DNA from: a virus
DNA length: 23,805 nt
Reading direction: 5' to 3' (one strand)
IMG/VR virus record: IMGVR_UViG_3300028925_007473
Coordinates: 1-23,805 of that record
Both the position numbers and the translations under genes were made by a program. Shown one piece after another: positions 1 through 16,484 of this stretch; position 1 is the first letter of the stretch; the number at the start of each line of letters is the position of its first letter. The notes beneath the pieces were generated by a model. The model saw only the letters and a program-made list of their open reading frames with translations. It had not been told where the DNA came from and did not search any database.

Positions 1-1
1 G

Positions 2-247
2 CGAGATGCTGAAAATACTACTCTTGCGCGGTTTATACGGAATCTTGAGTCTCGTATCTATGCTGAACTTAGCCGTCAATTAGTTAATAACCTTTTTGGC
101 GAAACAATGAGTACCGAAGGTATTCTTGAGTTAGAAGGCAATACCATCCAGTATTTTATTGACGGAGACTTTATCACCCTAATAATAACGGATTCAGATG
201 GAAACACTACGGAAATTACTTTGCCTGTCGGTTCTTTTTCTTTCTAG
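2..247 (+). CDS. csgF: Curli assembly factor CsgF, C-terminal part (5' end outside window)
   Basis: The open frame enters from the left edge and ends at TAG 245-247, giving 81 residues. It reads as the C-terminal half of CsgF: an amphipathic helix (LARFIRNLESRIYAEL), then a short spacer and a beta-rich end (GNTIQYFIDGDFITLIITD, then GNTTEITLPVG), which matches the usual CsgF pattern of a polar helix followed by strands ending in a 'T-T-x-I-x-V-x-G' type sequence. In known curli systems CsgF is secreted, caps the outer face of the CsgG pore and anchors the nucleated fibre. The gene overlaps csgG by 50 bases in another frame, so the two are translationally coupled. The signal peptide and the CsgG-contacting N-terminus lie outside the window. 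The identity rests on pattern recall plus the adjacent csgG. Confidence 0.82.
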   Translation, partial: RDAENTTLARFIRNLESRIYAELSRQLVNNLFGETMSTEGILELEGNTIQYFIDGDFITLIITDSDGNTTEITLPVGSFSF

Positions 248-1019
248 TTGCTCAGTTTTTGATCAATTTGAAGACACTTACAGTCAGCGTTTTAGTGACA
301 ATGACGTAGTTACAATTAATAAATTACAGTCAAAATCTTTAATTAACGCAATTCCTCCTGCAATTAAACCTGTTGTTGCTGTATACCCGTCCTCATTTAC
401 AGATCAGACAGGCCAGAGGAAAAGTAATAGCTCATTCGCTCTGTTCTCAACGGCTGTTACACAGCAACCTAGCGCCCTTCTCATAAGGGCATTAAAACAC
501 GCTTCAAATGGTAATTTTTTTAGAGTTGTTGAAAGAGTAGGCTTAGATAACTTAACTAAAGAACGACAGCTTATTAGATCAGCTAGAGAGCAAACTTTTA
601 ATGCAGGCGAGCCTGAAAAAGTACCGCCTTTGTTATTTGCAGGGGTTTTGCTAGAGGGTGCTGTTATAGCGTATGACTCAAATTTAACTACTGGGGGAAT
701 AGGTGCTAGGTACTTGGGTATAGGAAAAAGCGCTCAATATCGACACGATGCAATTACTGTGTCCTTAAGGATGATATCAGTAGCTACTGGAGAAATACTT
801 GTAGAGGTTCTGAGTCAGAAAACTGTGTTCAGTTATGGACAATCGGACGATGTTTTTAAATTTATAGAAATGGGGTCAGAACTTGTTGAGATAGAGTCAG
901 GAAATTCTCGCAACGAGTCCACCACAATAGCCCTTATGAAAGCTATAGAAGGCGCTGTCTTAGAATTAATTAACATTGGTTACGATAGAAGGTTTTGGAC
1001 TTATGAAAAAGATAAATAA
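198..1019 (+). CDS. csgG: Curli secretion channel lipoprotein CsgG
   Basis: The 273-residue protein has a type II signal peptide with a lipobox (LFLSSC, Cys18 lipidated) and then the CsgG domain over nearly the whole length. Recognisable CsgG stretches are 'VVAVYPSSFTDQTGQ', 'FSTAVTQQPSALLIRAL', 'LTKERQLIRSAREQ', 'LLEGAVIAYDSNLTTGG', 'GARYLGIGKSAQYRHD', 'SVATGEIL' and 'AIEGAVLELI'. CsgG forms a nonameric outer-membrane pore that exports unfolded curlin subunits; length is normal for the family. The ATG at 198 gives the lipoprotein signal directly and lies inside csgF. The next gene starts 17 bases before this one stops, so the block is one operon. The AT-rich composition matches the curlin, FecR and cyclase genes after it. 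No csgE chaperone gene, and no csgB or csgD, is visible in the window. Confidence 0.95.
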   Translation: METLRKLLCLSVLFLSSCSVFDQFEDTYSQRFSDNDVVTINKLQSKSLINAIPPAIKPVVAVYPSSFTDQTGQRKSNSSFALFSTAVTQQPSALLIRALKHASNGNFFRVVERVGLDNLTKERQLIRSAREQTFNAGEPEKVPPLLFAGVLLEGAVIAYDSNLTTGGIGARYLGIGKSAQYRHDAITVSLRMISVATGEILVEVLSQKTVFSYGQSDDVFKFIEMGSELVEIESGNSRNESTTIALMKAIEGAVLELINIGYDRRFWTYEKDK

Positions 1020-1734
1020 AAAGATATTGCTTATTACAAGTTTTCTTACAAGTGCCGCGCTATACAGCGCAGACAATGAAATTTACATTGAGCAATCAGG
1101 AGCTACTGCAAATATTGATGTAGAACAGCTAGGCATATCTAACTTGATTGGAGGTTTAGGCTCTTCAGCAGGAAGTTTAACGCCATTAGACCTTGATGGT
1201 ACTGGAATGACGCTAGATATTAATATGATTGGTGCTACCAATAAGTTCTTTGGTGATATTTATGCTGACAGCTTTACTGGTCTGTATAACTTTACAGGCT
1301 CAACTAATTTATTCACAATCCAAGTTGATCCAAGTAACACTTACGGAGCAGACAGCTCTAATCACAACGTAGCTGTAACAGGCGCAGGAAACACGTTTAC
1401 ATTAAACCAAGGGACATCTGCTATGGCGGCAACTTTGGACTTGGATTGGATTATCCAAGGGTCTAACAACACCATTACATCAAACATAAACATTGATGGT
1501 GCTACACAATATATAGACATAGATGGCTCAGATAACACTCTTACTTATACTGGTACTGGAGTAACTGCTTCCGCAGGAGGTTATTTTTACTTAGATCAAA
1601 CAGGTGGATCAAGGACGTTTAATATTCAACAACTGAGTACACAGGATAATGACTGGCTTAAAATACTTTCTACTGGTTCTAGTGGTACTATTTGCGTCAT
1701 TCAAAACGACCAAGGTACAAGCCTTAGTTGTTGA
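1003..1734 (+). CDS. Curlin-like secreted fibre subunit
   Basis: From the ATG at 1003 the product is 243 residues. It begins with a Lys-rich start and a hydrophobic core ending SAALYSA, a signal peptide probably cut before DNEIYIEQSG. The mature chain has beta-rich stretches with curlin-like spacing of Asn, Ile/Val, Gln and Gly: NEIYIEQSG, NIDVEQLG, NNTITSNINIDG, YIDIDGSDNTLTYTG and TFNIQQLS. The regular five-repeat Ser-x5-Gln pattern of E. coli CsgA is not present, so it is a divergent curlin or curlin-associated protein. It is longer than classical CsgA (about 150 residues) and ends in a Cys. It overlaps csgG by 17 bases, which makes it the obvious export substrate. An ATT codon at 976 also opens the frame, but it is not a credible start and would precede the signal peptide. 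Curlin family: fairly sure; amyloid formation: not shown. Confidence 0.75.
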   Translation: MKKINKKILLITSFLTSAALYSADNEIYIEQSGATANIDVEQLGISNLIGGLGSSAGSLTPLDLDGTGMTLDINMIGATNKFFGDIYADSFTGLYNFTGSTNLFTIQVDPSNTYGADSSNHNVAVTGAGNTFTLNQGTSAMAATLDLDWIIQGSNNTITSNINIDGATQYIDIDGSDNTLTYTGTGVTASAGGYFYLDQTGGSRTFNIQQLSTQDNDWLKILSTGSSGTICVIQNDQGTSLSC

Positions 1735-2758
1735 TATTGGCGGCATATCTGAAGTATCTGGATACGCACAGGTCAAAAGGGATAGTGAACCTCTTAATGC
1801 GGATTTAAAGTTAAGCATTCAATCCAACGATCAAGCTGTAACCACCAATGGCCGTATGGCTATTACATTCTTAGATGACTCGACTGTAAAGTTGACTGAG
1901 CATAGTCAACTAACTATAGACGAATACATCTTTGATCCAGACCCTAGTAAGTCAAAGATGGCACTTACTTTTGGACTAGGAACCGCTAGATTTATAAGCG
2001 GTAAGCTAGGGCAAATAGACAAAAGAAACATATTGTTAAAAACGCCAGTAAGCAATATTGCGATTCGCGGGACGGACTTTACTGCAACAGTAGATGAACT
2101 AGGTCGCAGTTTAATTATACTCCTGCCTAATAAATATGGAGTTTCTAGCGGGGAAATAGAAGTAATTACGGCTATGGGTAGCGTGTTACTAAATAAACCT
2201 TACGAAGCAACAACTGTATCGGTGTTTGAGTCGGCTCCATCAAAACCAGTAATATTAGATTTGACGCTAGATTTTATTGATAACATGTTAATTGTTACGC
2301 CTCCCGCCAAGAAAAATGTAGTTATAGATGAGCAGGTAATAAAAACTGCAAATATTTTAGATTTTAACGATCTGGATATTGATTACTTAGATGAGGATTT
2401 ATTGGCTGAAGACAGCTTGGAATTTACAGAACTGGACATCAACTATCTAGACGTTAATTTCTTAGAAGACTTATTAAATATTTTAGATGCGCTAGGTGTT
2501 GATGAAGAAGAAGACCAGTTAACTCAAGTTTCAGGAGTTACAATGACTGGAACTAGCTTTGGAGCAGATGTTAATACCCAAATAACCGCAATAATTACAG
2601 GTCAAACACTAAGTCTTGTTAGGAATGTTAGCGAATATACTAAGTTAGACTTAGATATTTCTGGCGGCTACACGGTAATTTTAATTCAAGACGGTATCTC
2701 CAATACAATCAAGATTAATGGCGGTGACTCTGTTATTAGAATCACACAGGAAGGCTAG
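1649..2758 (+). CDS. Exported FecR-domain protein with curlin-like C-terminus
   Basis: The 369-residue protein starts with a clear signal peptide (KYFLLVLVVLFASF, predicted cut after VQA at about residue 25). Residues about 40-175 form a FecR domain: a beta-rich fold with 'AITFLDDSTVKLTEHSQLTID' and the hallmark 'TPVSNIAIRGTDFTATV'. Residues about 235-285 hold an acidic duplicated segment (FNDLDIDYLDEDLL and FTELDINYLDVNFL). The last ~70 residues are beta-rich and end NTIKINGGDSVIRITQEG, similar to the Asn/Ile/Gln/Gly spacing of the curlin gene before it. FecR domains act in the periplasm, classically passing a signal across the inner membrane; this protein has no anti-sigma part. The start lies 86 bases inside the curlin gene and encodes the signal peptide, so the overlap is unusually long. 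The stop overlaps the cyclase start (TAGTG). No iron-uptake gene is nearby. Confidence 0.85.
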   Translation: MTGLKYFLLVLVVLFASFKTTKVQALVVDIGGISEVSGYAQVKRDSEPLNADLKLSIQSNDQAVTTNGRMAITFLDDSTVKLTEHSQLTIDEYIFDPDPSKSKMALTFGLGTARFISGKLGQIDKRNILLKTPVSNIAIRGTDFTATVDELGRSLIILLPNKYGVSSGEIEVITAMGSVLLNKPYEATTVSVFESAPSKPVILDLTLDFIDNMLIVTPPAKKNVVIDEQVIKTANILDFNDLDIDYLDEDLLAEDSLEFTELDINYLDVNFLEDLLNILDALGVDEEEDQLTQVSGVTMTGTSFGADVNTQITAIITGQTLSLVRNVSEYTKLDLDISGGYTVILIQDGISNTIKINGGDSVIRITQEG

Positions 2759-4548
2759 TGAAAAAAACTATTGCAGGTATTGTGGCCGCGCTATTGTTTT
2801 CTGTTTTAGCTTATCAACCATCTTTAATCGAAGTTATAAAATTAAGGGTCTTTGACGCTTTAGTTAAAACTGAGGAGCCAACAGGCAATATAGTTTTGCT
2901 TAACCTTACCGAAGAAGATATACATAACGAAGGTGGGTGGCCTTTTCCACGAGAGCGACTAGCTGAGATTCATATTAACTTGTTAAATGCAGGAGCCGCA
3001 TCAGTTTCTTGGGTAGTCGTGTTTAGCGAACCAGACAGATTTGGCGGAGATGCAGTATTCTCAGAAGCTTTATCCTACCACCCTAGCGTAATAGCTATGT
3101 TTGAAACTGACGGATACAAAGAGATACCCAAGACAGAAGGCACAGTAGTACTGGGCAATGATGTTGGAGGCATAGAGGCTGTAGGCGTTACGCAAAACAT
3201 AAAAGCTCTTAGAGATGTATCATTGCAAGGCATAGTATCCGCGCCTGTTGATGTTGATAACTTAGTCAGGCGTATGCCGTTGCTAATGAGAAGTCCAGAC
3301 GGATGGATAGCTAGCTTTGGAACGCAACTATTAAAGGCCGTTACAGGCACAAGCACTTACGTTATTAAAACTAACGCTAACGGAATACAAGAAATACGAG
3401 TTAAGCAGTTAAACCCCATCCCAACCGACAGTAGCGGCAGGGTTTGGGTTAACTGGATACAAACAGAAAGCACTACGTTAGACAGCATGGACGTAGAAGG
3501 GAAGATGGTTATTGTAGGAACTACGGCTAAAGGCATTCTTCCACAGGTTTCTACCCCCAAAGGGTTGCTTTACCCACACCAGATACAAGCATCGTTAGCT
3601 GAAACTATTATTCATGCGTCTAACAAGCGTATGCCTATGGTGCCAAACGAATCGTTGCTTTATGAGATGTTGAACTTTGTTTTTGGCGTGTTGTTAGTTT
3701 TTGTATTTATTAACTATTTGGGCGTATATTTAGGTCTTGCGCTGTCATTAGCGGCTATGGTTGCTATGGGTGCATTGGGATACTATTTAATACAGATAGG
3801 ATTTTTAATAGATGTAACGTGGACAATAATCTCTCAGTTTGTAATAGCGTCTGTTACTTTTTACCTTAACTACAAAGAACAATATAAATTACGGCAACAA
3901 ATTAAAAAACAATTTGAGCATTATCTAGACCCGCGACAAGTTAAAAGATTGCAAGAAAACCCCGAATTACTCAAGTTAGGGGGTGAAAAGCGTTACTGTA
4001 CGTTCCTATTTACTGATGTTCGCGGGTTCACGGCCCTATCAGAGAGCGTAACGCCCGAAGAAGTAACGTATATTATGAATAAGGCCTTAACTGCACAACA
4101 ATCAGCAGTAGCAAAGTGCAACGGCATGGTTGATAAGTATATAGGTGATGCAATGATGGCTATCTTTGGAGCGCCATTAAACCTAGAAAGGCATGAAGAT
4201 TGGGCTATAAAATGCGCCAAACAAATTAAAATAAACATGAAAGCCCTTAATGTTGAGTTTAAGACTAAAGGACTGCCTCCAGTGCAGATAGGCATAGGGA
4301 TTAATAGCGGTGATGCTATTATTGGGAACATGGGTTCTGATCAGCGTTTCGATTACACTGCAATAGGGGATGCTGTTAATGTTGCGGCTCGATTGGAGTC
4401 AGGAACCAAAGATGCAGGCGTAGATGTTCTGATAGGCTCTAGCACTGCACAACACTCCAATAGTAGGTTACAATCATTACCGTCTATTAAAGCAAAAGGT
4501 AAGTCTAAAAAACTTAAAGTTTATACAATAATTGAGGAAGTACAATGA
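2758..4548 (+). CDS. CHASE2-domain class III adenylate/guanylate cyclase
   Basis: This 596-residue membrane protein starts at GTG, overlapping the upstream stop. An N-terminal hydrophobic helix (about residues 5-22) precedes a periplasmic CHASE2 sensor (about 25-290; IVLLNLTEEDI, GGWPFPRERLAEI, VDVDNLVRRMPLL). Three transmembrane helices follow (about 303-372), a short linker, and a class III cyclase domain (about 408-590). Both metal-binding aspartates are present, D420 in FTDVRGFT and D464 in KYIGDAMM, as are the transition-state residues N541 and R545 (NVAAR). The base-selecting pair looks like K460 and T534, typical of class IIIb adenylate rather than guanylate cyclases. It should make cAMP from ATP in the cytoplasm in response to a periplasmic signal. 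FecR/CHASE2-cyclase pairs occur in bacterial chromosomes from memory; inside a phage operon this is unusual. All catalytic residues are intact. Confidence 0.93.
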   Translation: MKKTIAGIVAALLFSVLAYQPSLIEVIKLRVFDALVKTEEPTGNIVLLNLTEEDIHNEGGWPFPRERLAEIHINLLNAGAASVSWVVVFSEPDRFGGDAVFSEALSYHPSVIAMFETDGYKEIPKTEGTVVLGNDVGGIEAVGVTQNIKALRDVSLQGIVSAPVDVDNLVRRMPLLMRSPDGWIASFGTQLLKAVTGTSTYVIKTNANGIQEIRVKQLNPIPTDSSGRVWVNWIQTESTTLDSMDVEGKMVIVGTTAKGILPQVSTPKGLLYPHQIQASLAETIIHASNKRMPMVPNESLLYEMLNFVFGVLLVFVFINYLGVYLGLALSLAAMVAMGALGYYLIQIGFLIDVTWTIISQFVIASVTFYLNYKEQYKLRQQIKKQFEHYLDPRQVKRLQENPELLKLGGEKRYCTFLFTDVRGFTALSESVTPEEVTYIMNKALTAQQSAVAKCNGMVDKYIGDAMMAIFGAPLNLERHEDWAIKCAKQIKINMKALNVEFKTKGLPPVQIGIGINSGDAIIGNMGSDQRFDYTAIGDAVNVAARLESGTKDAGVDVLIGSSTAQHSNSRLQSLPSIKAKGKSKKLKVYTIIEEVQ

Positions 4549-4754
4549 TTACAATTAATGATGTAACTTACGAAGAAGAAGATTTAACGCCAGAAGCAAT
4601 CGCTAATGTTGCTCGTGTTAACGAGTTAAGACAAGAGCTTAACTCACATCAAATGCGTGTCTCAGAACTTAATGTTTTAATTTCTGCTTACGCTAACGCA
4701 ATCAAAGCAAGCGTTGAAGTGGTTGAAGAAGGTGAAGAGGCGAAAGAAGCGTAA
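4545..4754 (+). CDS. Small phage protein, DUF6447-like
   Basis: A 69-residue acidic protein whose ATG overlaps the cyclase stop (ATGA). The layout is a short strand-turn-strand start (MITINDVTYEEEDLTPEA), then a helical part with ELRQELNSHQ and 'LNVLISAYANAIK', then an acidic tail. This matches my memory of a family of small phage proteins beginning 'M-x-x-I-x-I-x-G-x-x-Y' and ending with 'Y-x-x-A-L-K', annotated as DUF6447; the function is unknown. Its place just before the holin genes suggests a structural or lysis-linked role, but nothing in the protein proves this. There is no signal peptide and no membrane helix. Confidence 0.72.
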   Translation: MITINDVTYEEEDLTPEAIANVARVNELRQELNSHQMRVSELNVLISAYANAIKASVEVVEEGEEAKEA

Positions 4755-4936
4755 TGCCTACAGTCAAAGAAGCACTTATTAAGTTAGAATCTCATGAGGC
4801 AGAATGTTCTGTAAGATACTCAAATATTGAAAAACGCCTTGATGATGGAGCAAAAAGATTTAATAGGCTAGAAATGATGCTTTGGGGCGTATATCCCTTT
4901 ATCTTAGCTTCTTTGGCGATAACAAAACTATTGTAG
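4754..4936 (+). CDS. Small membrane-anchored coiled-coil protein, holin-associated
   Basis: This 60-residue protein overlaps the previous stop by one base (TAATG). Residues 1-40 are a charged amphipathic helix (SHEAECSVRYSNIEKRLDDG, then RFNRLEM) and residues about 43-58 form one membrane helix (WGVYPFILASLAITKLL). A short soluble helix followed by a single C-terminal membrane segment is a common plan for XhlA-like and class III holin-like phage proteins placed just before the true holin, which fits the next two genes. It is probably a holin partner or regulator at the inner membrane. It could also be a membrane tether for a virion factor. The assignment rests on architecture and neighbourhood, not on a specific motif. 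Confidence 0.7.
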   Translation: MPTVKEALIKLESHEAECSVRYSNIEKRLDDGAKRFNRLEMMLWGVYPFILASLAITKLL

Positions 4937-4944
4937 GAGACACC

Positions 4945-5328
4945 ATGTCAATACTTGCATCGTTAGTCGGGCCAGTTACTGGTCTATTAGATAAGTTCAT
5001 TGAAGATAAAGACACTAAGAATGCTTTGGCACATGAAATTGCTACCATGTCAGAGAAAGCGTCTAATGAAAACGCTATCGCTCAGATTGAGTTAAACAAG
5101 GCTGAAGCCCAGTCTGGGTCTCTGTTTATTGGCGGATGGCGACCCTTTGTGGGATGGACATGCGGTTTGGGACTTGCCTACAATGTAATTATATCTCAGA
5201 TACTTTCTATTTGGTTTGTGGTTCCTACGGTTGATCCCTCGCTACTAACGCCTGTGTTAATGGGTATGCTTGGTATGGGAGCGATGCGTTCGTTTGAGAA
5301 GACAAAAAATGTTGCGAGAGAAAAATGA
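4945..5328 (+). CDS. Three-helix phage holin
   Basis: The 127-residue product resembles the 3-TM holin family (Holin_3TM, also found in gene-transfer agents). It has an N-terminal amphipathic segment (SLVGPVTGLLDKFIEDK), a helical stretch (ENAIAQIELNKAEAQS), the diagnostic 'GGWRPFVGWTCGLGLAYN', two further hydrophobic helices (IISQILSIWFVV, and LLTPVLMGMLGMGAMRS) and a basic tail. It should accumulate in the inner membrane and open at the end of infection to release the endolysin. The ATG at 4945 is preferred because TAGGAGA lies just upstream; the in-frame start at 4882 would add 21 residues read from the previous gene. The stop overlaps the endolysin start (ATGA), the normal holin-endolysin pairing. 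Confidence 0.88.
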   Translation: MSILASLVGPVTGLLDKFIEDKDTKNALAHEIATMSEKASNENAIAQIELNKAEAQSGSLFIGGWRPFVGWTCGLGLAYNVIISQILSIWFVVPTVDPSLLTPVLMGMLGMGAMRSFEKTKNVAREK

Positions 5329-5687
5329 CTGATTTTAAAAACGATGACTTTAAATACTTTAAGCTCTCAGATTTTGATTGCCAAGAAACTGGCGAAAATA
5401 ACATGTCTTTTGATTTTATTCACGCTCTTGACCAGTTAAGAGGAGCCTGTGGATTCCCATTCATAGTCACAAGCGGCTTTAGATCAAAAAATCATAGCGC
5501 TGAAAAACGTAAAGAAAAAGCAGGAACTCATGCATACGGAATTGCCGCAGACATTAGAGTATCTGGAGGCGCACAGCGTTTAGCTATTGTTAAACATGCG
5601 TCTGCTCTTGGGATGTCTGTAGGTGTTGCTAAAACCTTTGTACATGTTGATACTCGAAAGACTGAGCCAATGTGTTGGTGCTATTAA
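5325..5687 (+). CDS. Peptidase M15 family endolysin
   Basis: A 120-residue zinc peptidase of the M15 type (Peptidase_M15_3-like), usual in phage lysis cassettes and cutting peptidoglycan cross-bridge peptides. Zinc ligands are in order: H69 and D76 in 'HAYGIAADI' (the H-x6-D pattern) and H107 in 'FVHVD', with D109 next to it. 'VTSGFRS' is the conserved loop before the metal site. Length is normal for the single-domain form. There is no signal peptide, so release depends on the holin, whose stop codon it overlaps. It ends in an unusual Met-Cys-Trp-Cys-Tyr tail. No separate Rz/Rz1 spanin pair was found near it, so the outer membrane must be disrupted some other way or by a gene outside the window. 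Confidence 0.92.
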   Translation: MTDFKNDDFKYFKLSDFDCQETGENNMSFDFIHALDQLRGACGFPFIVTSGFRSKNHSAEKRKEKAGTHAYGIAADIRVSGGAQRLAIVKHASALGMSVGVAKTFVHVDTRKTEPMCWCY

Positions 5688-5735
5688 CTTAAGAGTTATA
5701 AAACTTATTAATATGATTAAATTTGGAGAACACAA

Positions 5736-8700
5736 ATGAGCAAAGGCGGTGGTGGCGGAGCAATGCAAGGTGGCTACGGTCAACAAGGCGGCGGTTTTGG
5801 TCAGCAGGGTGGCTACGGTCAACCTAGGGTTCCAACTAATCAAGGTGGAATGTATAGCCGCATGGGAGCGCAGTCTTCTATGGGAGGCAAAGGTGGTCGT
5901 TCTCCAAGTGGGTTTGGTCAGCAAGGTAGTTACGGACAACAAGGTGGCTATAGAGGCGGCTTTGGTCAACAGCAGGGTGGATTCGGCCAGCAAGGTGGTG
6001 GATTCGGTCAGCAAGGTGGCTACAGAGGCTCTATGGGCGGAAAAGGCGGTCAACAGGGCGGTTATGGTCGGCAACAAATGCCCAGAAGTCCTTATGGGCA
6101 AAACACAGGATTCCCCGGACAACGGCCTGCTCCTAACTACGGGCAAATAGGAAGAGGCGCTAAAGGCGGTATGGGTAACATGGGTGGAGGTCAACGCTAT
6201 CAAGCACCATACATGCCTACTCTTGTGGATACTGGCGAAAGTAACGGTGGGACTGCCACAAATGGTATGGATATTAATCCCCCAAGAGGAGGAATGGGTG
6301 GCTCTATGGGCGGAGGTGAGGGTGGAAGAAACTATACAGACCCGACAACTGGAAATGAAATGTATCAGCCGCCAATGCCAACAGTTCCTGAAGGCATGTC
6401 GCAACGTATGGTAATGCCACCGCCAATTAATACGGGTATGGGCGGCAAAGGTGGACAACAACCTCCACAGATGAGAACGCAAGGGCCAGAAAGCCTTAGA
6501 ATGCAAGGGACACCACTGCAACAGAGCATGGCCGTCAATCACATGGCAGTCCAACCAATCAACGCAGTGCCGCAACAATATACAAGAGATGATAATTTAA
6601 AATCGACAATAATGCAGGCTCCAGATATTCAGGGTGCAGAGACAGGAATGCCGGGTAGTTTTGGATATTTATCTCCAGAAGAAAAAGATAGAAGAGAAAG
6701 AGGAGTCCAAGATAGACTGGCTCGTCAGCAAACGTTTATGGACGAAAATCCTTTAGTGCCTCAAGTACAGAATTTAGACCTACAATTGCTTGGTGGGCCT
6801 AACGATCCTTTGTCGGAGAACTATATTGACCCAAGGATAGAGATGCGAGAGATAAAAAGACAGCAACAGGCAGAATATGACGCATCAGAGCGCCCGGTCC
6901 GTCGCTTAACATCGCCGCGCCCGGTTTTGGACCCCCGGGGATCAGCTAATTTGGCCCAGCCGGGACCGGTGTTATTCGATCGCGATCCTACGATTGGGAA
7001 CCCGTACTCGCCATTTGACGATAGCGGGATTCAAGCGCAAATAGGTGGTTTACAAAAACAGTTTGGCAACATAATTGGCAACATGCCTTCGTTCGATCCG
7101 ACCGATATGCAAGCGCAGATTCAGGCTAATCAAGCGTCAATTGGCAACATGCCTACGTTTGACGATAGCGGGATTCAAGCGCAAATAGGTGGTTTGCAAG
7201 AACAGTTTGGCAACATGCCTACGTATGATGATAGTCAGCTCAGAAAAGACATGGACAGTAGGTTTGGAAACATGCCTTCGTTCGATCCGAGTGGTTTGCA
7301 AGACCAAATAAAATCTCTGCAAGCGTCAATTGGCAACATTCCTCAATTTGACCCGAGTGAGATGCAAGCGCAGATTCAGGCTAATCAAGCGTCAATTGGC
7401 AGCATTCCTCAATTTGACCCGAGTGGGATGCAAGCGCAGATTCAGGCTAATCAAGCGTCAATTGGTAACACAGGGAAGCCCTACGGAAACTCCTTTCCAC
7501 CGTTCGATGGGACGCAAAAACCAAATCTATTCCCACCGGCAGCTACAGCTCCACCACCAGCAGCTCCACCACCAGCAGCTACAGTTCCACCACCAGCAGC
7601 AGCTACAGTTCCACCACCACCAGCAGCTACAGCTCCACCACCAGCGGCTCCGCCAGTGGCAGCTCCACCAGCTACAGCTCCGCCAGTGGCAGCTCCACCA
7701 GTGGCTCCACCAGGTCAATTACCACCTCCAACAGTCGCGGCTGGTGAAACGCCTTACGTTTCTAGCGTAGATCAAACGACAATAACGTCGGACCCGACAA
7801 CGCAACAGCTGTTGTTTGGTTTGGATGGACAAGGCGGATTTATACCGGGCGCTATGCAAGCGGCTGAAAATACTTTCTTCAATCCAGATGGCACGCCAAG
7901 AGTGGTTGACCAAGAGGTTGCCGGATTGACGCCTGACCAAGAGAGGGCAATGGAGCTCGCTCGTGGTCAGGTTGGCATTCAAGATCGCTACCTGGGTGGT
8001 GCAGAAGATTTATATCAGGAAGGCGTCAGGCGCTCTGACGAAGGGTTGGCGCGGCAAATAGCTTTGGGCCAAGATGCTTTAGGAACCACGCAGAGAGGTG
8101 TTTCTGAAGAGCAAGCATTGCGTGACAGGGGCCTCGAGGGGCTTCTAAGCTCCATAGGTGAGGGCAGACAGCTTGCCGGCGGAGCAACCAGCGATCTTTA
8201 CGGTCGGCTGGGAGAAACCGAAAATATTCAGCGCGGCGCGGTAGACCAGTTTGGCAGACAGCTGGGCGGGATTGAATCAATGCGGCGCGGGGCGGTCGAA
8301 GATTTTGGCGGTAGGCTGGGAGAATCAGAGGATTTAATTCGCGGCACGACCGGAGCCTACGACCAAGACCTGACGAAGGAATTTTACGACCCCTACGAAG
8401 ATCGGGTCGTTAACCAGACAATCGAGGATGCGCTGAAGGGTTCTGATAAGGCCGACATGGCTCAATTTGCACGGGATGTTTCAAGTGGTGGAGAATCAGC
8501 TTTCGGCTCCAGAGCACGTCTAACTGCCGGTGAGAGGCGTGAAAGCCTTGGCAGGGGCTTGGCTCAAGAGCTGGCCGGAATTCGCTCTCGTGGCTTTACA
8601 GAGGCCCAGAGAGCGGGCACTTCTGAATTTGCCAGACAAAAAGCAGCACAGGGCGCAGCGGGTAGCAATTTAGCCGGCTTATCCGGCCAACGGCTTGGAG

Positions 8701-9398
8701 CGCAACAGCAGCTCGCAAGCGGCTTAGGGTCACTCTCAGGCCAGCAGTTGGCAGCTCAGCAAGGCTTAGCCTCTGGCTTAGGTCAGGCCGGACAACAAAG
8801 ATACGGTGCCGGCACAAACTTAGGCTCGACACTGGTTGGATTGGGGCAGACTGGACAACAGGCGATGTCGGGAGCTGGACGGGCAGCACTGGGATCTGCC
8901 GGTCAATTGGCTGGCGCACAAGGTCAGATGGGTGGCTTGTACGGGCAGGGTGGACAACAGCAACAAGAATCAAGAGCGGGGCTAGGCAGATTCATGCAAG
9001 GACTTGGTAGCCAGGCGCAACAGGCCGGCATGACCGGAATCAATGCGCTGGCCGGCTTCGGTGGCCAGCAACAGCAATTGATGCAGCAGATGCTTGATGC
9101 GCAGCGCCAGAACGCAATGATGAGACAACAGGCACCACTTGCTCAGTATCAATCACTGTTGCCGTTCATCCAGGCGGTGCCACAAGGGCAGCAACAAACA
9201 CAAACTGCTTACTCTCCTCGGCCTAGCGCTTTACAGGCTGCACTCGGAACAGGGCTCAGCACCTTTGGCGGAATCGGCAGCTACATGAATCAGGCCGGGC
9301 CCTCTGCTCCTACCCAGCAACAAGGTGGTTTGAGCCCTGCCGCGATAAAGCAGCTTGAGCAATTGCTGGCGCAGCGGCAACCGGTTACAGGAATATAG
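5736..9398 (+). CDS. Giant low-complexity virion-type protein
   Basis: This 1220-residue protein follows a good ribosome site (TTGGAG). Residues about 3-125 are Gly/Gln/Tyr/Phe-rich, made of GGYGQQ and GGFGQQ units; about 126-330 is Gly/Met/Pro-rich; about 425-580 holds 22-residue repeats (FDPSxMQAQIQANQASIGN); about 600-670 is a Pro/Ala linker. From about 675 a more ordered, helical region (LTPDQERAMELARGQVG, FYDPYEDRVVNQTIEDAL, SAFGSRARLTAGERRES) runs into Ala/Gly/Gln helices. The C-terminal part recalls proteins common near tail and internal-virion genes of marine phages, with a 'Y-x-x-P-Y-x-x-x-V-x-x-x-T' then 'G-A-F-G-S-R' order. No enzyme motif is seen. It is probably structural (fibre, tail or ejection protein). 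The C-terminal half is visibly more GC-rich than the first half, suggesting assembly from two sources. Confidence 0.75.
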   Translation: MSKGGGGGAMQGGYGQQGGGFGQQGGYGQPRVPTNQGGMYSRMGAQSSMGGKGGRSPSGFGQQGSYGQQGGYRGGFGQQQGGFGQQGGGFGQQGGYRGSMGGKGGQQGGYGRQQMPRSPYGQNTGFPGQRPAPNYGQIGRGAKGGMGNMGGGQRYQAPYMPTLVDTGESNGGTATNGMDINPPRGGMGGSMGGGEGGRNYTDPTTGNEMYQPPMPTVPEGMSQRMVMPPPINTGMGGKGGQQPPQMRTQGPESLRMQGTPLQQSMAVNHMAVQPINAVPQQYTRDDNLKSTIMQAPDIQGAETGMPGSFGYLSPEEKDRRERGVQDRLARQQTFMDENPLVPQVQNLDLQLLGGPNDPLSENYIDPRIEMREIKRQQQAEYDASERPVRRLTSPRPVLDPRGSANLAQPGPVLFDRDPTIGNPYSPFDDSGIQAQIGGLQKQFGNIIGNMPSFDPTDMQAQIQANQASIGNMPTFDDSGIQAQIGGLQEQFGNMPTYDDSQLRKDMDSRFGNMPSFDPSGLQDQIKSLQASIGNIPQFDPSEMQAQIQANQASIGSIPQFDPSGMQAQIQANQASIGNTGKPYGNSFPPFDGTQKPNLFPPAATAPPPAAPPPAATVPPPAAATVPPPPAATAPPPAAPPVAAPPATAPPVAAPPVAPPGQLPPPTVAAGETPYVSSVDQTTITSDPTTQQLLFGLDGQGGFIPGAMQAAENTFFNPDGTPRVVDQEVAGLTPDQERAMELARGQVGIQDRYLGGAEDLYQEGVRRSDEGLARQIALGQDALGTTQRGVSEEQALRDRGLEGLLSSIGEGRQLAGGATSDLYGRLGETENIQRGAVDQFGRQLGGIESMRRGAVEDFGGRLGESEDLIRGTTGAYDQDLTKEFYDPYEDRVVNQTIEDALKGSDKADMAQFARDVSSGGESAFGSRARLTAGERRESLGRGLAQELAGIRSRGFTEAQRAGTSEFARQKAAQGAAGSNLAGLSGQRLGAQQQLASGLGSLSGQQLAAQQGLASGLGQAGQQRYGAGTNLGSTLVGLGQTGQQAMSGAGRAALGSAGQLAGAQGQMGGLYGQGGQQQQESRAGLGRFMQGLGSQAQQAGMTGINALAGFGGQQQQLMQQMLDAQRQNAMMRQQAPLAQYQSLLPFIQAVPQGQQQTQTAYSPRPSALQAALGTGLSTFGGIGSYMNQAGPSAPTQQQGGLSPAAIKQLEQLLAQRQPVTGI
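5742..6100 (+). repeat. Prion-like Gly/Gln/Tyr-rich coding repeat
   Basis: Short degenerate units encoding GGYGQQ, GGFGQQ and SMGGKGG recur through the 5' end of the giant protein gene. The composition (Gly, Gln, Tyr, Phe, few charges) resembles low-complexity domains of eukaryotic RNA-binding proteins that phase-separate. It is coding, not a non-coding repeat. Confidence 0.85.
7080..7466 (+). repeat. Tandem 66-base (22-codon) coding repeats
   Basis: Copies run from 7080, 7146, (a shortened 57-base one at) 7212, 7269, 7335 and 7401, each beginning with the codons for Asn/Ser-Met/Ile-Pro. The last two, 7335-7400 and 7401-7466, differ at very few positions, so the duplication is recent. Each unit encodes a PxFDPS turn followed by a short helix, MQAQIQANQASIG. 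A partial earlier copy begins near 7011. Confidence 0.9.
7534..7725 (+). repeat. Pro/Ala-rich linker repeat
   Basis: CCACCA, GCAGCT and ACAGCT/ACAGTT triplet-type units alternate and encode runs such as PPPAATVPPPAA. It forms an extended flexible linker between the 22-residue repeats and the ordered C-terminal half of the giant protein. Such tracts change length by slippage, and an assembler could also miscount copies here. Confidence 0.85.
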
Positions 9399-9409
9399 GA
9401 CGCCCACAG

Positions 9410-10828
9410 ATGGAACAACAGATAAAAAAATATCAGACCGAAGAAGAGGTGGTGGCTGAGGAAGATCCTTTTAGCGGTGGCATTGATTTAAGCCAAATTG
9501 ATCCGACTGCTTTGATGTTGCTCATGGCTCAAAATAAAGCTGCGGCTAAAACTACTCCACAAGCATTTGAATCAAATGTTGAAAGGTATCAACAGCGGTT
9601 AGCTCCCTTTTCTTATCAAGCGCCAAGAAAAGATATTTTTGACCTAGCAAGCTCGTTAGGCGCAGGAATATTGGCTTCTCAGCAACGAGGCGGAAGAAAC
9701 CCTTTCGTTGGAATAGGCGAAGGATTTGTAGGCTTGTCTCAGCAACTAAGAAAGGACGAGGAAGACAACGCTAAGAATAGGCAAGCAATGGGATTACAGG
9801 CATTTCAGTTGGCGTTAAAAGACGAACAGCAAGCCCGTGATTACATGAACCAGATAGACCTAAAGCTTATAGACAATGCCAACAAAGAGCCGGAATACAT
9901 GCGCATTGAGTGGGACGAAGTTGACCCTGACACTGGGGAAACCGTCAACAGAGGTCAGAGTATTGCCAACATACCGAGTAATTACGCAGCTATTGAAGAT
10001 CTTATGAAAACCAAGAATGGCAGAGAGGTCAAGCTCGCTGACACACAGATCAACATGCCAGATCCAAATGCTGGCTATGGAGACAGAAAGGCTATTGATG
10101 CCATAGATCAACAATCACAGCAGTTTTCAGCAGAAGCTAATGCATCGAATGCGGTCGTTGACCAAGTTAATCGAGCATATATTTTAGCTAATCAAATAGT
10201 TCAAGAGGGTGGAACATTTGGGCCATACGCCAGATCAACTTTAGGTATTAGAGAGTTTGTATCAAGCCTTGGCTACGGTGATTTGTTAGAAGCAGAAGGC
10301 GCTATAGCTCCACAGAAGGCTTTAAATCAATTGGCTATGAGTTTCACTATGGCTATTGTTTCTCAGACCAAGGGCGCAATTTCCAATAGAGAAATGGAGC
10401 TTTTCATAGCGGCTTCCCCTACGCTTGGGTCTACAGCAGAAGGGTTTATGGAACAACTGCGGCTTTTGGAAAAACTGGCTCTTAGGAAAAAAGATTTTTA
10501 CTCAAATTATCTGACCGAAATGGATACCCTTGAAAAAGATAAAAGTTTAAGCCATACGCAAAGAAGAATTAAGCTGGATCGATTCAAGAATGATTGGCCT
10601 GAAGCCAATCCTCTTCTAAGTGAAGAAGATGAAGCAATACTACAGAACGCAATAGATAACCCTATTATTGATAACGATTTCACGCCTCGTGCTTTCAGAC
10701 GCGCTTGGGAGGCAAAAGAAGCAGAGCTTGGGAGAATACCCCTTGTGGCATCAAAAGCAGATTATGATGCTTTGCCAAGCAAGGCTTATTATAGAACCGC
10801 AAGAGGCCAAAGAGCGCAGAAACCATAA
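9410..10828 (+). CDS. Putative internal virion / structural protein
   Basis: A 472-residue protein starting 11 bases after the giant protein, with AGGA upstream. It is mostly helical and polar, without signal peptide or membrane segment. Residues about 10-110 are Gln/Gly-rich (NPFVGIGEGFVGLSQQLRKD) and resemble phage proteins that begin 'fd-l-A-S-x-L-G-x-G-i-L'. The best-ordered section is about 225-365: SNAVVDQVNRAYILANQ, then 'ALNQLAMSFTMAIVSQTKGAIS', 'NREMELFIAASPTLGSTAEG' and a long helix. That section matches my memory of a conserved domain in phage virion proteins, with 'TKGAISNREM' as its centre. It lies between two large putative virion proteins and its stop overlaps the next start (TAATG), so the three are made together. 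Function is inferred from context; no catalytic motif is recognised. Confidence 0.65.
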   Translation: MEQQIKKYQTEEEVVAEEDPFSGGIDLSQIDPTALMLLMAQNKAAAKTTPQAFESNVERYQQRLAPFSYQAPRKDIFDLASSLGAGILASQQRGGRNPFVGIGEGFVGLSQQLRKDEEDNAKNRQAMGLQAFQLALKDEQQARDYMNQIDLKLIDNANKEPEYMRIEWDEVDPDTGETVNRGQSIANIPSNYAAIEDLMKTKNGREVKLADTQINMPDPNAGYGDRKAIDAIDQQSQQFSAEANASNAVVDQVNRAYILANQIVQEGGTFGPYARSTLGIREFVSSLGYGDLLEAEGAIAPQKALNQLAMSFTMAIVSQTKGAISNREMELFIAASPTLGSTAEGFMEQLRLLEKLALRKKDFYSNYLTEMDTLEKDKSLSHTQRRIKLDRFKNDWPEANPLLSEEDEAILQNAIDNPIIDNDFTPRAFRRAWEAKEAELGRIPLVASKADYDALPSKAYYRTARGQRAQKP

Positions 10829-13389
10829 TGGCGAACGAAACGGATGAATTTGGCGGGATTATCGTAGGGGGCAATGTAGACGAATTTGGTGGCAAGTTGC
10901 TTGAAGACACCAAAACTATTGGTCCCTCCATAGAAGAAGACCCAGAGGATGCTAGTGGCATCGGTAACGCCCTGTTAGCTGGGTTAACCAATAGCGAAGA
11001 AAATAAAGTTTTCTGGTTGGCTGCCAAACGCTTTCCAGAGCAAGTTGAAAAGGGCAACAACCCAGCGGAGTTTTATGCCCTTGATGAAAGCGGGGACCTT
11101 TTTTACCGTGACCCATATTCAGGCGAATACAAAAAAGAATTTGCAGACGATATCTTTGGTTTTGATATCGACTACCTAGACAACCTGGGGCCAGTCGGAC
11201 AGTTTTTAGGTGAAGTGGTAGGTGGCACAATTGGCCTTACGTCTGGCTTTATGTCCGGCGGCTTCCCCGGCGCCGCCCTTGGCGGGGCTAAAGGTACTGC
11301 TGTTGGCGGTGGAACTTCTTATGCGATAAGAGCAGGGTTATCTCAAGCATTGGGTGGGCCTCCATTAGAGGTAGAAAAGGCGGCAAAGGATTTGGCTTTG
11401 TCGTCCGCATTTGGGGCAATTCCTTTTGGCGTTCCAACAAAGGCAGCGCCAAAAACTCTCAAGTTCATTTTTGACAAGTTTCCCGGTACGGAAGGCAGAA
11501 CTATCTTAGCCGATATTGTTCAGAACGGCGGGCGCACAGTTGATGAAAAACTTGAGTATATGTCTCGAAAATATCCAGATATATCTCTCTCTAGAGCAGA
11601 AGCAAACGAATTAGTTGGAAATGCGGGGTACAAAGCCGAGGCTTTTATCAACAAAAACGCACGCAACGAAACTTTGGTGCAACATTACAACGACCGCAAC
11701 GAGAGAATTGCTTATCACGCAGAAAATTTCTTTGAACAGGTTATAAGCGGAAAGCTCGTCACTGGAGCAACCAGTAAAAAACTGACGGGCCAAGCCTCCG
11801 TGGACGCAGAATTGGATATAGCTCGTGCTGCCGAGCTATACATTGAAGCAGAAAAGAAAAAACTGGCAGCACGAGTCGCCCCGTTATACAGAGAAGCGTA
11901 TGACATGGATGTGGCCATCGATGTTAGCGATATTATTAAACAAATAGACGAGGTTATTGGCAATCCAAATGCTTCGGCAGAAAAGATTACTGCTTACAAA
12001 AAAATGAGGGCTGCGCTAACAGATTCATCAATTGGCGATAACGCGCCAAGGGAAAGCACGGAGTTATTGCACGAAGGACTAAAAGATAATTTTAATAGAT
12101 TGCTGTCTTCCCTCACAAAAGATGCGGATTCTTCTTTAAAGAGAGAAGTGACGCTGGTGAAAAACCAAGTTTCTAACCGGCTCAAAGAGGCGAACCCCCT
12201 TTACAAGAACGTGACACAAATATATGACGACGCCTTTGGAACCGCGCAGATTTTAGATAGAGGCATTGTAGGACAATTTGCCAAGGTAGCGGGATTTGGC
12301 GAAAAAGCCGCAAGATTAACTAAAAAATTATTTAGCGGAAATATTAAGCCGCGTGAAATACAAGAATTAAAAACCATTATGCAATTAACGGATGATGGCG
12401 CAAAATCTTGGCAAAACCTAAAAGGCACATGGCTAAGCACTCAGTGGGATGAGGTTATCACTCAAGGAGGGAATCCATTAGGCCAGCCAAATAAATTTCT
12501 TAGTGCTATGGGAATTAAAAGTCCTTCAAGAGCTTTTCCAAAGGAAAATGTTATATATGACGCAAGAGGGATGCGGCTACCTGCGTCCGCAGATGAATTA
12601 GCAAAACTCGCTGACGAAGTTGCTGAATATCAGGTAAAGGGAAAAAAGGCAAAGATGTGGGAGGCGATGTTTGAGCCAGATGAGTTAAAAAGCTTTGTTG
12701 ACCTTACAAGCCTGATGGAAATGGTGAGCCGAATACAGACCCAAGCCGGTTCAGATACGTTTGGAAATTTCACTATGGACGCTATTCTTGCTAAAGAAGC
12801 AAAACAAATTATGGGGCAAGGACTGGTAACTGGGGCCAAGCAAGCTTATTACAGTGCCGGCGGCCTCTTGACGGCACTGTTTAGTTTGCCCTCTAGGGTT
12901 GCTGGGACAGGATTTAAAGATTTGATGGGCAATGTCGCACAAAGACAAAAAGACGCCTACATGGATCTTTTGATTAGCCACATTGTTGACGGAAGTAAAC
13001 GGGTGTCTTTAGACGCCGTTATGGAATCGGTCAAGCCAGCAGCTTATTTAATCTCACAAACCTTTACTCGCGGTGGTGTTGAGGGGCTGATCGGTTTGTT
13101 CAATGACCTTAGCCGAGATGAAAGAAAACAACAGTTTATTGAGCGGGGTGATGAAGTTATTGAAGGGCAACAACAAGATCAGCAACAAGAGCTTAACGGC
13201 CAAATAGAGGGCGCAACCCCTACCGCATTAAACTTGCCCTTGTTTGAAGACATGCCGCAGAGTGGTTTTGGCGGGGCGCCTAGCGGTTTCGATGTATCAA
13301 TGTCACCGACAATTCTACCCTCTGCATCCGATCGAGAAATAGCGATGCGCATGAACGCAAAAAAATCAGGTATCGGCTCGCTCGTCTAA
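10828..13389 (+). CDS. Large putative DNA-ejection (internal virion) protein
   Basis: The 853-residue protein overlaps the previous stop by one base. Its N-terminus repeats the DEFGG motif (DEFGGIIVGGN and DEFGGKLL). Residues about 120-180 form a Gly/Ala-rich, membrane-active stretch with glycine-zipper spacing (VGQFLGEVVGGTIGLTSG, GAALGGAKGTAVGGG). The rest is mainly helical and charged (residues about 280-560), with a Gln-rich segment near 765-785 and a Pro-rich end. Size, amphipathic glycine zipper and position fit proteins injected with phage DNA to form a conduit in the envelope (as gp15 and gp16 do in T7-like phages), but no lytic transglycosylase motif was seen. The 3' end overlaps the convergent gene by 24 bases. 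Confidence 0.62.
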   Translation: MANETDEFGGIIVGGNVDEFGGKLLEDTKTIGPSIEEDPEDASGIGNALLAGLTNSEENKVFWLAAKRFPEQVEKGNNPAEFYALDESGDLFYRDPYSGEYKKEFADDIFGFDIDYLDNLGPVGQFLGEVVGGTIGLTSGFMSGGFPGAALGGAKGTAVGGGTSYAIRAGLSQALGGPPLEVEKAAKDLALSSAFGAIPFGVPTKAAPKTLKFIFDKFPGTEGRTILADIVQNGGRTVDEKLEYMSRKYPDISLSRAEANELVGNAGYKAEAFINKNARNETLVQHYNDRNERIAYHAENFFEQVISGKLVTGATSKKLTGQASVDAELDIARAAELYIEAEKKKLAARVAPLYREAYDMDVAIDVSDIIKQIDEVIGNPNASAEKITAYKKMRAALTDSSIGDNAPRESTELLHEGLKDNFNRLLSSLTKDADSSLKREVTLVKNQVSNRLKEANPLYKNVTQIYDDAFGTAQILDRGIVGQFAKVAGFGEKAARLTKKLFSGNIKPREIQELKTIMQLTDDGAKSWQNLKGTWLSTQWDEVITQGGNPLGQPNKFLSAMGIKSPSRAFPKENVIYDARGMRLPASADELAKLADEVAEYQVKGKKAKMWEAMFEPDELKSFVDLTSLMEMVSRIQTQAGSDTFGNFTMDAILAKEAKQIMGQGLVTGAKQAYYSAGGLLTALFSLPSRVAGTGFKDLMGNVAQRQKDAYMDLLISHIVDGSKRVSLDAVMESVKPAAYLISQTFTRGGVEGLIGLFNDLSRDERKQQFIERGDEVIEGQQQDQQQELNGQIEGATPTALNLPLFEDMPQSGFGGAPSGFDVSMSPTILPSASDREIAMRMNAKKSGIGSLV

Positions 13390-13623
13390 ATCGTCCTGAG
13401 CTTCACTAGCGGACACGATCGCACCATCGACCTCGTAATCGAAGTCGTAGCCCATGTGGGCTTCCCCATTAATGTTGATGACTAGGTTTCTGGAGATAAG
13501 GCGCAACAGAGCGGCCTGGTGGTGCAGAGTCAATCGGCTAAACAGCTCTATAACTTCCTTTGCTTCCAGAACAGGCTGGTAGGATTGAGGCAAGGATTTT
13601 GCCTTCTTGCCAAACATTCTCAT
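13366..13623 (-). CDS. Small conserved-looking protein of unknown function
   Basis: An 85-residue protein read leftwards, starting three bases after the stop of the regulator gene at 13627, so the two form one operon. A second ATG (at 13617) lies two codons in. The N-terminus is basic (FGKKAKSLPQS), the middle is helical (LEAKEVIELFSRLTLHHQ then AALLRLISRNLV), followed by two beta strands (INGEAHMGYDFDYEVDGAIV) and an acidic tail. I do not recognise the family. Its 3' end overlaps the end of the large virion gene on the other strand by 24 bases. The opposite-strand frame over this area has no ribosome site and a less protein-like composition. A role as partner of the RHH protein is possible but is only inferred from the operon. 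Confidence 0.65.
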   Translation of the reverse strand: MRMFGKKAKSLPQSYQPVLEAKEVIELFSRLTLHHQAALLRLISRNLVININGEAHMGYDFDYEVDGAIVSASEAQDDLDERADT

Positions 13624-13626
13624 CCG

Positions 13627-13800
13627 CTAAAGAGCCTGGCGCGAGTCTTGAATGAGCATCCGGTGCTCCCGCTCGATCAACACTTTCAATTGATCGATCT
13701 TGCTCCGCCGCTCACGGTTACAAATCTCTTGCAAAAGATTGTAGGTGTGAACGTCGAGAGCCAAAGATTTTCGGATCTTCGGATTTATGTCTTCTGCCAT
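13627..13800 (-). CDS. Ribbon-helix-helix (Arc/CopG-type) regulator
   Basis: From the ATG at 13800 the product has 57 residues: MAEDINPKIRKSLALDVHT, then YNLLQEICNRERRSKIDQL and KVLIEREH. This is the RHH layout: a short basic beta strand (RKSLALDV) for base contacts, helix 1 (HTYNLLQEICNRE), a turn with Arg-Ser-Lys, and helix 2 (IDQLKVLIEREH). It probably binds DNA as a dimer and represses its own and other early promoters. The gene stands next to the divergent oxygenase and near several TGCA-containing palindromes, which are candidate operators. The frame continues upstream without a good start; the MAED start is preferred for its fit to the family. No clear ribosome site precedes it, which suggests a short or weak leader. 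Confidence 0.7.
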   Translation of the reverse strand: MAEDINPKIRKSLALDVHTYNLLQEICNRERRSKIDQLKVLIEREHRMLIQDSRQAL

Positions 13801-13862
13801 AATCGTTTTTGTTGGTTGATGGATATGGAACATTCTATAGATTCGTGCAACAATTAGCAACT
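13801..13862. promoter_or_regulatory. Divergent control region between RHH regulator and oxygenase
   Basis: The 62-base gap separates the leftward regulator gene and the rightward oxygenase gene. On the - strand TTGCTA (13860-13855) and TATAGA (13839-13834) sit 15 bases apart, a weak sigma70-type promoter for the regulator. It holds GTGCAAC and TAGCAAC, which resemble the TGCA elements in other gaps. No clear + strand promoter or ribosome site was seen for the oxygenase. Confidence 0.35.
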
Positions 13863-14576
13863 ATGTACGATCTCAAAAACTACCTGCTTTCAATGCAGTC
13901 GCACTGGATGGTGCACCAGCCCACCTATAACGCGGTGCAAGAGTCCCTGCCACTGATTACCAAGTATCAGGCAAATGAGGGCATCGAAAAATTAGGCAAC
14001 ACGCCGGCTAAGAAAATCTGCCGGCAGGTCTTCCCCGAGGTTTACACATTCCCGCTATTCAGGCGTCAGTGGTGCAAGATGATGGTGGAAGAGATTGATC
14101 TCATGCGGAAAGATCTGGCTTTTAAGGCAAACGAGGATGAGGACGCGCTCAGGCAGATCCCTGAGATTGTCTTAAAGACTGAATGCCCAGCCCTCTACCG
14201 CAATATGTGGTTCGTGGCGCAGACAGTCATCAACCCGATCATCACCTCGCTCTGGCAGAGAGACTGCCGCGATGCAGCCACTATACAGATTGCTAACTAC
14301 AACATTGTAGACAAGAAACAAGGTGCCTGGCATCACGATGAGTCGGCTGACATATCGGTGGTGGTGCCGCTCAACACCGGTGGCTATAAGGGTGGCGGTA
14401 CGGAGTTCCACAACCACGGCACGCTGAAGCCATTGCCCAGCGGCCACGCGCTGATGTTCCCCAGCTTCACCAACCTACACCGAGGGCTGCCGGTGGATGG
14501 CGGTGATAGATACCTTTTAGTCTTCTGGCTCTACCATAAAAGTCGTGTCGTTGATCTGTACGAGGACATAGACTAA
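13863..14576 (+). CDS. 2-oxoglutarate/Fe(II)-dependent oxygenase
   Basis: Starting at ATG 13863 the product has 237 residues. The C-terminal jelly-roll carries the full iron facial triad: H157 and D159 (HxD in GAWHHDESAD), H206 (in FTNLHRG) and R216 (in GDRYLLVFWL), which holds the 2-oxoglutarate carboxylate. Strands 'ADISVVVPLN' and 'GGTEFHNHG' fit prolyl-hydroxylase-like oxygenases, which are frequent in marine phages. The first ~140 residues are helical and unassigned; they may bind the substrate. Substrate is unknown: a protein side chain, a nucleic acid base or a small molecule are all possible. The frame extends to a TTG at 13809 without a ribosome site, so the ATG is preferred. It is transcribed away from the RHH regulator, which may control it. 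Confidence 0.85.
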   Translation: MYDLKNYLLSMQSHWMVHQPTYNAVQESLPLITKYQANEGIEKLGNTPAKKICRQVFPEVYTFPLFRRQWCKMMVEEIDLMRKDLAFKANEDEDALRQIPEIVLKTECPALYRNMWFVAQTVINPIITSLWQRDCRDAATIQIANYNIVDKKQGAWHHDESADISVVVPLNTGGYKGGGTEFHNHGTLKPLPSGHALMFPSFTNLHRGLPVDGGDRYLLVFWLYHKSRVVDLYEDID

Positions 14577-14592
14577 TTTAATACCTGTTTAA

Positions 14593-14643
14593 TTGCATAA
14601 AGTTGCACAAATATGCAGACAACGACACGATACTATGTATAAT
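14593..14643 (+). promoter_or_regulatory. Promoter A with tandem TTGCA repeats
   Basis: A perfect -10 box TATAAT lies at 14638-14643. Upstream are AACGACACGAT (14621-14631), shared exactly with the promoter before 23781, and a tandem direct repeat TTGCATAAAG/TTGCACAAAT (14593-14612), spaced one helical turn. The best -35 at 17-base spacing is GCAGAC (14615-14620), which is weak, so an activator or repressor is likely. It would drive the gene at 14700. Confidence 0.65.
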
Positions 14644-14654
14644 AAGGGTGTAAG

Positions 14655-14670
14655 AACGCCGCGAGGCGTT
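14655..14670 (+). other. 5' leader hairpin with GNRA tetraloop
   Basis: AACGCC (14655-14660), loop GCGA, GGCGTT (14665-14670) forms a 6-base perfect stem closed by a GNRA loop, about five bases after the expected transcription start of promoter A. A hairpin at the extreme 5' end usually protects mRNA from decay. It lacks a U-run, so it is not a terminator. Confidence 0.5.
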
Positions 14671-14699
14671 ATAGTCAATCAACCAATAAGGTAATCAAC

Positions 14700-14930: not shown

Positions 14931-15027
14931 CGCAGCCCCAGTCTTTTTCTAGTGTGTGTATCTGGGCGACATCAAAAATAACTGACACCGAGGGGATGCA
15001 AGGCCCCACTCAAACAAGGAGGAAAAA

Positions 15028-15387: not shown

Positions 15388-15390
15388 AAG

Positions 15391-16482: not shown

Positions 16483-16484
16483 GA

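Follow-up and report, generated by a model that had tools for sequence, protein, structure and literature searches.

Curli genes are already known from marine phages. The csgF and csgG genes were reported in pelagimyophages, and 'sibling capture' was proposed as their role (PMC7029224). A type VIII secretion system (T8SS) module with FecR, a cyclase and a 'histidine kinase' was described in podo- and myophages, together with its expression in the ocean; one or two of these 'histidine kinases' were placed before csgF, and FecR and the cyclase were stated to be outside bacterial curli operons (PMC9599517). For phage Melnitz, a role in lysis control was proposed as a speculation (PMC9004378). Published guesses as to why ocean phages carry curli genes absent from their known hosts comprise sibling capture, uptake, superinfection defence and lysis control. 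Holin, endolysin, lysozyme and spanin are not mentioned in PMC9599517, and no report of the lysis neighbourhood of phage curli genes was found in the literature. Here we analyzed a 23,805-base virus record, IMGVR_UViG_3300028925_007473 (hereafter the window; 46% GC, end repeats not found), in which positions 2-5687 hold a curli cassette that runs into holin and endolysin genes. We favour, with modest confidence, the view that this phage-borne cassette heads the lysis cassette within one late, translationally coupled operon, and that its fibre would be displayed shortly before lysis.

Nine genes, all on the + strand and overlapping or nearly so, occupy this region. The window lacks the left part of the genome, and csgF (2..247) runs off the left end of the contig, leaving 81 codons of its 3' part (Pfam CsgF 6e-11, on the C-terminal 81 aa only). 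It is followed by csgG, encoding an outer-membrane lipoprotein pore (198..1019; Pfam CsgG 8e-48, CsgG chains of the PDB 3e-43, lipobox LSSC), and by genes for a secreted, CsgA/B-like curlin-repeat protein (1003..1734), a secreted FecR-domain protein with an acidic linker and a C-terminal curlin-like repeat (1649..2758; Pfam FecR 1e-7), and a CHASE2 sensor/class III adenylyl cyclase (2758..4548; Pfam CHASE2 1e-33, Guanylate_cyc 7e-20). Next come two small genes, s1 (4545..4754), coding for a 69-aa lysis-module protein (PHROG 21153, 1.6e-8), and s2 (4754..4936), coding for a 60-aa coiled coil with a C-terminal membrane segment, probably a lysis accessory. Both are also present in relatives devoid of T8SS genes, where s1 lies beside s2, holin and endolysin. 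The block ends with the two main components of a Gram-negative phage lysis cassette, a holin with three transmembrane segments (3TM; 4945..5328; Pfam GTA_holin_3TM, PF11351, 4e-14; PHROG holin 1e-31) and an M15-type endolysin (5325..5687; Pfam Peptidase_M15_3, PF08291, 7e-10; PHROG endolysin 7e-29). A sequence-only reading of this DNA had named csgF, csgG, a curlin-like subunit, FecR, cyclase, holin and M15 endolysin, and Pfam and PHROG bear out all but the curlin-like subunit, which is suggested by its conserved repeats. As a side observation, s2 weakly resembles the NCBIfam gene transfer agent (GTA) head formation family NF048001 (8e-4, below cut-off), beside a holin that itself matches the GTA 3TM holin family.

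The junctions are tight. The csgG ATG at 198 precedes the csgF stop at 245-247 (50 nt shared), the curlin start at 1003 lies within csgG (17 nt), and that of FecR at 1649 within curlin (86 nt). Downstream, the FecR/cyclase, cyclase/s1 and s1/s2 junctions read TAGTG, ATGA and TAATG, a gap of 8 nt separates s2 from the holin gene, and holin and endolysin are joined by ATGA. The earlier list of junctions was right on the last five and gave the figures 50, 17 and 86 as 'bases', leaving unstated that these are overlaps; coupling is thus closer than if these figures were gaps. For comparison we gathered 222 viral T8SS loci via three CsgG scans of IMG/VR, a non-random sample as loci were picked by likeness to the three CsgG queries. 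The overlaps are conserved across T8SS loci: 133 of 205 csgF/csgG pairs have a spacing of -50 or -56, and 120 of 175 curlin/FecR pairs one of -86 or -92. Terminator-like and promoter-like sites in 1-6500 did not exceed the chance level. The earlier proposal of a single coupled block is supported, and late co-transcription of curli and lysis genes is probable.

The join itself is found elsewhere. An independent contig, L084, is colinear with window positions 1-6434 at 93% nucleotide identity, and carries upstream the end of a small gene, c1, and a full-length csgF. In five other contigs (L014, L018, L020, L043 and L060), the cassette also runs into holin and endolysin in the order of the window. 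Between the window and L084, ratios of nonsynonymous to synonymous substitution rates were 0.054 for csgG, 0.018 for curlin, 0.059 for FecR, 0.052 for the cyclase, 0.063 for the holin and 0.124 for the endolysin. All genes are therefore under purifying selection, as expected of working genes. The strongest constraint is on curlin, which fits fibre export better than a bare pore.

We then asked how often the cassette, defined as csgF-csgG-curlin-FecR-cyclase, lies beside lysis genes. Counts were restricted to lysis families supported by Pfam or PHROG. Of the 34 CsgG clusters (90% identity, both flanks visible), 18 had a lysis gene within 1 kb, compared to 12% of gene junctions in a baseline taken from 21 long contigs (binomial figure 7e-9, the clusters not being independent). 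Among loci with at least 1 kb of sequence after the cyclase, a lysis gene started at 1 kb or less in 52 of 105. The arrangements are diverse: c1-cassette-s1-s2-holin-M15, the window type; M15-c1-cassette-holin, with the endolysin upstream and the holin downstream; c49-c1-c1-cassette-c57-Rz-Rz1-GH24 lysozyme; c1-cassette-d43-d44-GH24 lysozyme, taken as HTVC023P-like; cassette-c175-M15; and, in T4-like contigs L298-L311, Rz-Rz1-c1-csgF-c1-csgG and so on. We considered d44 as a 3TM holin, which Pfam did not confirm, and counts redone without it gave the same outcome. The adjoining lysis genes are non-homologous, namely 3TM holin/M15, Rz/Rz1 spanins/GH24 lysozyme, and spanins in T4-like phages. 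Exceptions are HTVC008M-like contigs (SSB and 2OG oxygenase upstream of the cassette), L059-like contigs (structural genes on both sides), L005-like contigs (head-tail connector-like genes downstream) and L217-like contigs (lysozyme about 2.1 kb upstream). On the CsgG tree, neighbour classes require at least 12 changes, with at least 3 imposed by starred branches for the holin class and at least 2 for the lysozyme class. The curli-lysis association thus appears to have more than one origin, although some changes may be losses, and this recurring join to non-homologous lysis genes makes the fibre most likely a late product. Among contigs from metagenome-assembled genomes (MAGs), L399-L403, L405 and L407-L411 (Pelagibacter, Maricaulis, Flavobacteriaceae, others) bear a phage-type cassette, most with c1, and seem to be phage sequences that ended up in MAG bins. 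A 1.5-kb record labelled Salmonella phage, OR851715.1, bears a csgG-like gene and may be host DNA.

CsgF and CsgG have retained features of curli export. The window copy of CsgF is without its N-terminus; in L084 the full-length protein has a signal peptide and an F-x-S-P-x-F-x-G motif. This CsgG-binding channel plug, as F-x-S/N-P-x-F-x-G, is present in all 210 homologues. CsgG shows a lipobox pattern in 205 of 221 homologues and is alignable to the solved CsgG, with a diverged constriction loop that keeps the F of FSTAV and is without the Y and N present in E. coli. In the curlin-repeat protein, the Q, G and N positions of the Q-x-G-x2-N repeat are invariant among 45 orthologues, and the AlphaFold2 (AF2) model is made of beta-strands (predicted local distance difference test score, pLDDT, 79). 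The FecR protein consists of a signal peptide, a FecR beta domain whose AF2 model matches the PupR cell-surface signalling domain 6ovk (Foldseek, E 8e-5), a disordered acidic linker, and a C-terminal beta repeat resembling the curlin repeat, with Q347 and Q367 invariant.

A FecI/FecR iron-regulator role was suggested in PMC9599517. In the FecR protein the N-terminus is a signal peptide and only the FecR domain matches; the anti-sigma part is absent, so this role is unsupported, and no sigma or receptor gene lies beside the FecR gene. The cyclase retains its catalytic motifs (FTDVRGFT, DKYIGD and DYTAIGDAVNVAAR). Its stop codon abuts or runs into the following lysis-region gene, with several unrelated neighbours: s1 (-4), d43 (-8/-4), spanin c50 (-22/-8/-11) and holin (+15). 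FecR-domain genes directly 5' of a CHASE2 cyclase gene, with no curli genes nearby, were also observed in L432, L433, L440, L447, L448 and L470, from Sulfurimonas/Sulfurovum-type genomes. The existence of such pairs without curli in Sulfurimonas and relatives suggests that FecR and the CHASE2 cyclase are an older signalling pair.

Taken together, these features lead us to the following scheme. CsgG and CsgF would form an outer-membrane channel, through which the curlin-repeat protein would be exported. The secreted FecR protein, via its curlin-like tail, might nucleate or tether the fibre, and the CHASE2 cyclase might read FecR as a ligand and make cyclic AMP inside the cell. The fibre would coat infected cells in the final stage, ahead of their opening by holin and endolysin, and virions would be released among sticky envelopes and neighbour cells, allowing either sibling capture or a shield from rival phages. 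Placement in the lysis region would supply the late timing, and the cassette need not take part in lysis. Several observations weigh against this scheme. The curlin-repeat protein has no Pfam curlin match, and Foldseek of its model returned beta-solenoid matches only, none significant. CsgE was not seen. The evidence for the step from FecR to cyclase is the pairing of their genes, which makes that step tentative. Furthermore, 16 of the 34 CsgG clusters are not lysis-adjacent, those of HTVC008M-like phages included, and cultured hosts of Melnitz showed no clumping (PMC9004378).

The most serious alternative, which we consider doubtful though far from negligible, is that the lysis region merely tolerates extra late genes, as a slot for morons, fibre and lysis being functionally unlinked; the benefit (adhesion, uptake or superinfection exclusion) would then be equal elsewhere in the genome. 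Empty sites, defined at the level of gene order and in keeping with the favoured scheme as well, indicate that the cassette indeed occupies a variable small-gene slot inside or beside the lysis module. The T8SS-less contig L090 reads tail fibre-c34-c14-c68-c16-c16-s1-s2-holin-M15, and L060 matches its order around the slot, with tail fibre-c34-c14-c1-cassette-s1-s2-holin-M15. Similarly, L136 and L138 (no T8SS) have M15-c68-c16-c16-holin where L026, L028 and L051 have M15-c1-cassette-holin. Unrelated small genes thus fill the same slots in T8SS-less relatives, T4-like and other phages have the cassette away from lysis genes, and cassette neighbours shift often on the CsgG tree. Against a tolerant slot alone, over half of assessable clusters are lysis-adjacent, next to at least three non-homologous lysis sets, a share above the 12% expected by position, and stop-start coupling often links the cyclase to the gene after it. 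On sequence grounds, a functional link to lysis and a tolerant late slot are both conceivable.

An unlikely possibility is that CsgG, together with CsgF, acts as a lysis effector, its pore depolarising or perforating the outer membrane and replacing or timing the spanin step. The sequence-only reading had raised this idea after seeing no spanin pair, and a proposal of this kind was published for Melnitz. CsgG adjoins holin and endolysin, and the window, to which the search was limited, yielded no recognisable spanin (neither a hidden Markov model match nor a lipobox open reading frame (ORF) in 4300-6100). However, many phages have Rz/Rz1 spanins immediately next to the cassette, and a T8SS-less sister, G037, with the same s1, s2, holin and M15 genes, is also without a recognisable spanin, so that a CsgG pore standing in for a missing spanin is disfavoured. 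Moreover, conserved and strongly constrained curlin and FecR, as well as the universal CsgF plug motif, would be superfluous for a bare pore. The slot fillers of T8SS-less phages (c68, c16, c21, c25 and c36) were considered as spanins and rejected, the sole match being that of c68 to an Rz family (0.013).

A further possibility involves c1, to our mind the best lead since it is phage-only and bound to T8SS. This protein of 95-117 aa combines a single membrane segment at its N-terminus with a coiled coil, and belongs to phrog_18771, of no assigned function. Its gene lies 5' of csgF in 185 of the 186 loci whose upstream sequence is long enough. It is missing from each of the 104 loci that lack T8SS genes, as it is from the Caulobacteraceae operons described below. 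Even at E values as high as 5, neither Pfam nor NCBIfam gave a kinase match for c1; the published name of histidine kinase was therefore not retained for a protein without a kinase or ATPase domain, nor was c1 as a known holin, for lack of a family match. Phages might repeatedly have built the curli operon, c1 and a fibre-reading cyclase into lysis cassettes such that export, or the FecR/cyclase signal, cues or brakes holin triggering. We regard this as improbable. The idea of a role in lysis is testable, because the same holin and endolysin occur in phages that have the cassette and in phages that lack it.

Finally, that bacterial curli genes were put onto a phage contig by misassembly, as a lower GC content of the cassette and lysis block (39-40% in 1-5687 against 49% in 5736-23805) and an apparent fusion or deletion in a neighbouring gene could suggest, is hardly credible, the join being upheld by colinear L084 and by the five contigs sharing the cassette-to-endolysin order. 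That neighbouring gene, an ORF of 1220 aa (5736-9398), Gly/Gln- and Pro-rich, resembles the 576-aa protein of L084 in its N-terminal part and a 631-aa protein of G037 in its C-terminal part, and the genes between them in relatives are missing. Either the deletion/fusion is genuine or the contig is chimeric at 6.9-8.3 kb, a point that would lie beyond the 3' end of the lysis genes. Elsewhere the window contains further phage genes: large unassigned ORFs, a 2OG-Fe(II) oxygenase, an exonuclease VIII-like gene, a primase-helicase and a small terminase. GC at third codon positions exceeds 0.6 in the replication genes and is about 0.3 in the cassette genes.

FecR and the cyclase can also form part of a bacterial curli operon. 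Two contigs from Caulobacteraceae MAGs, L404 (5092-11112) and L406 (5064-11121), contain csgF-csgG-curlin-curlin-FecR-CHASE2 cyclase, the gene order of the phage cassette, without c1 and without lysis genes. The ORFs flanking the operon in L404 look chromosomal from their translations, with housekeeping genes among them (TetR-like regulator, amidohydrolase, acyl-CoA dehydrogenase, methylmalonyl-CoA mutase subunit). Identity between the two contigs is 87% over exactly the operon and the flanks do not align, so that the operon appears to be mobile. It is rare in the bacterial order to which the Caulobacteraceae MAG belongs, as the FecR protein was found in a single one of 299 genomes of that order, the MAG itself.

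How, then, does the window compare with known systems? With Escherichia coli csgBAC/csgDEFG it has the CsgG and CsgF families in common; CsgE, CsgD and CsgC are not seen, and FecR and the cyclase are added. By tblastn, the same cassette was found in Pelagibacter phage HTVC008M (KC465899) and in Methylophilales phage Melnitz (EXVC044M). The sequence-only reading had mentioned csgG-like genes in some marine phages, correctly but with understatement, as csgF, csgG, curlin, FecR and cyclase have all been published in pelagiphages and a lysis-control role has been proposed. The window shares the order csgF-csgG-curlin-FecR-(curlin)-cyclase with HTVC023P-type pelagipodophages and pelagimyophages (PMC9599517, PMC7029224), and, with c1 5' of csgF in L084, the ordered small gene-cassette of pelagiphages is complete; c1 stands where those authors place the histidine kinase. 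CsgG and cyclase of the window are respectively 46% and 33% identical to those of HTVC008M, whose cassette sits between SSB/2OG oxygenase and tail genes, unlike that of the window. Melnitz has the same order, with two proteins of curlin-repeat type as well as FecR, but its proposed lysin, gp67, is away from the cassette; its CsgF was thought to be diverged (PMC9004378), whereas we find the channel motif kept there too. A phage-only partner, c1, and a chromosomal operon holding FecR and cyclase revise the published picture of the module. The curli cassette of pelagiphages and Melnitz was thus already known, whereas its start-to-stop joining to a holin/M15 lysis cassette distinguishes the window from the pelagiphage module, and its frequent adjacency to lysis genes across phages appears to be new.

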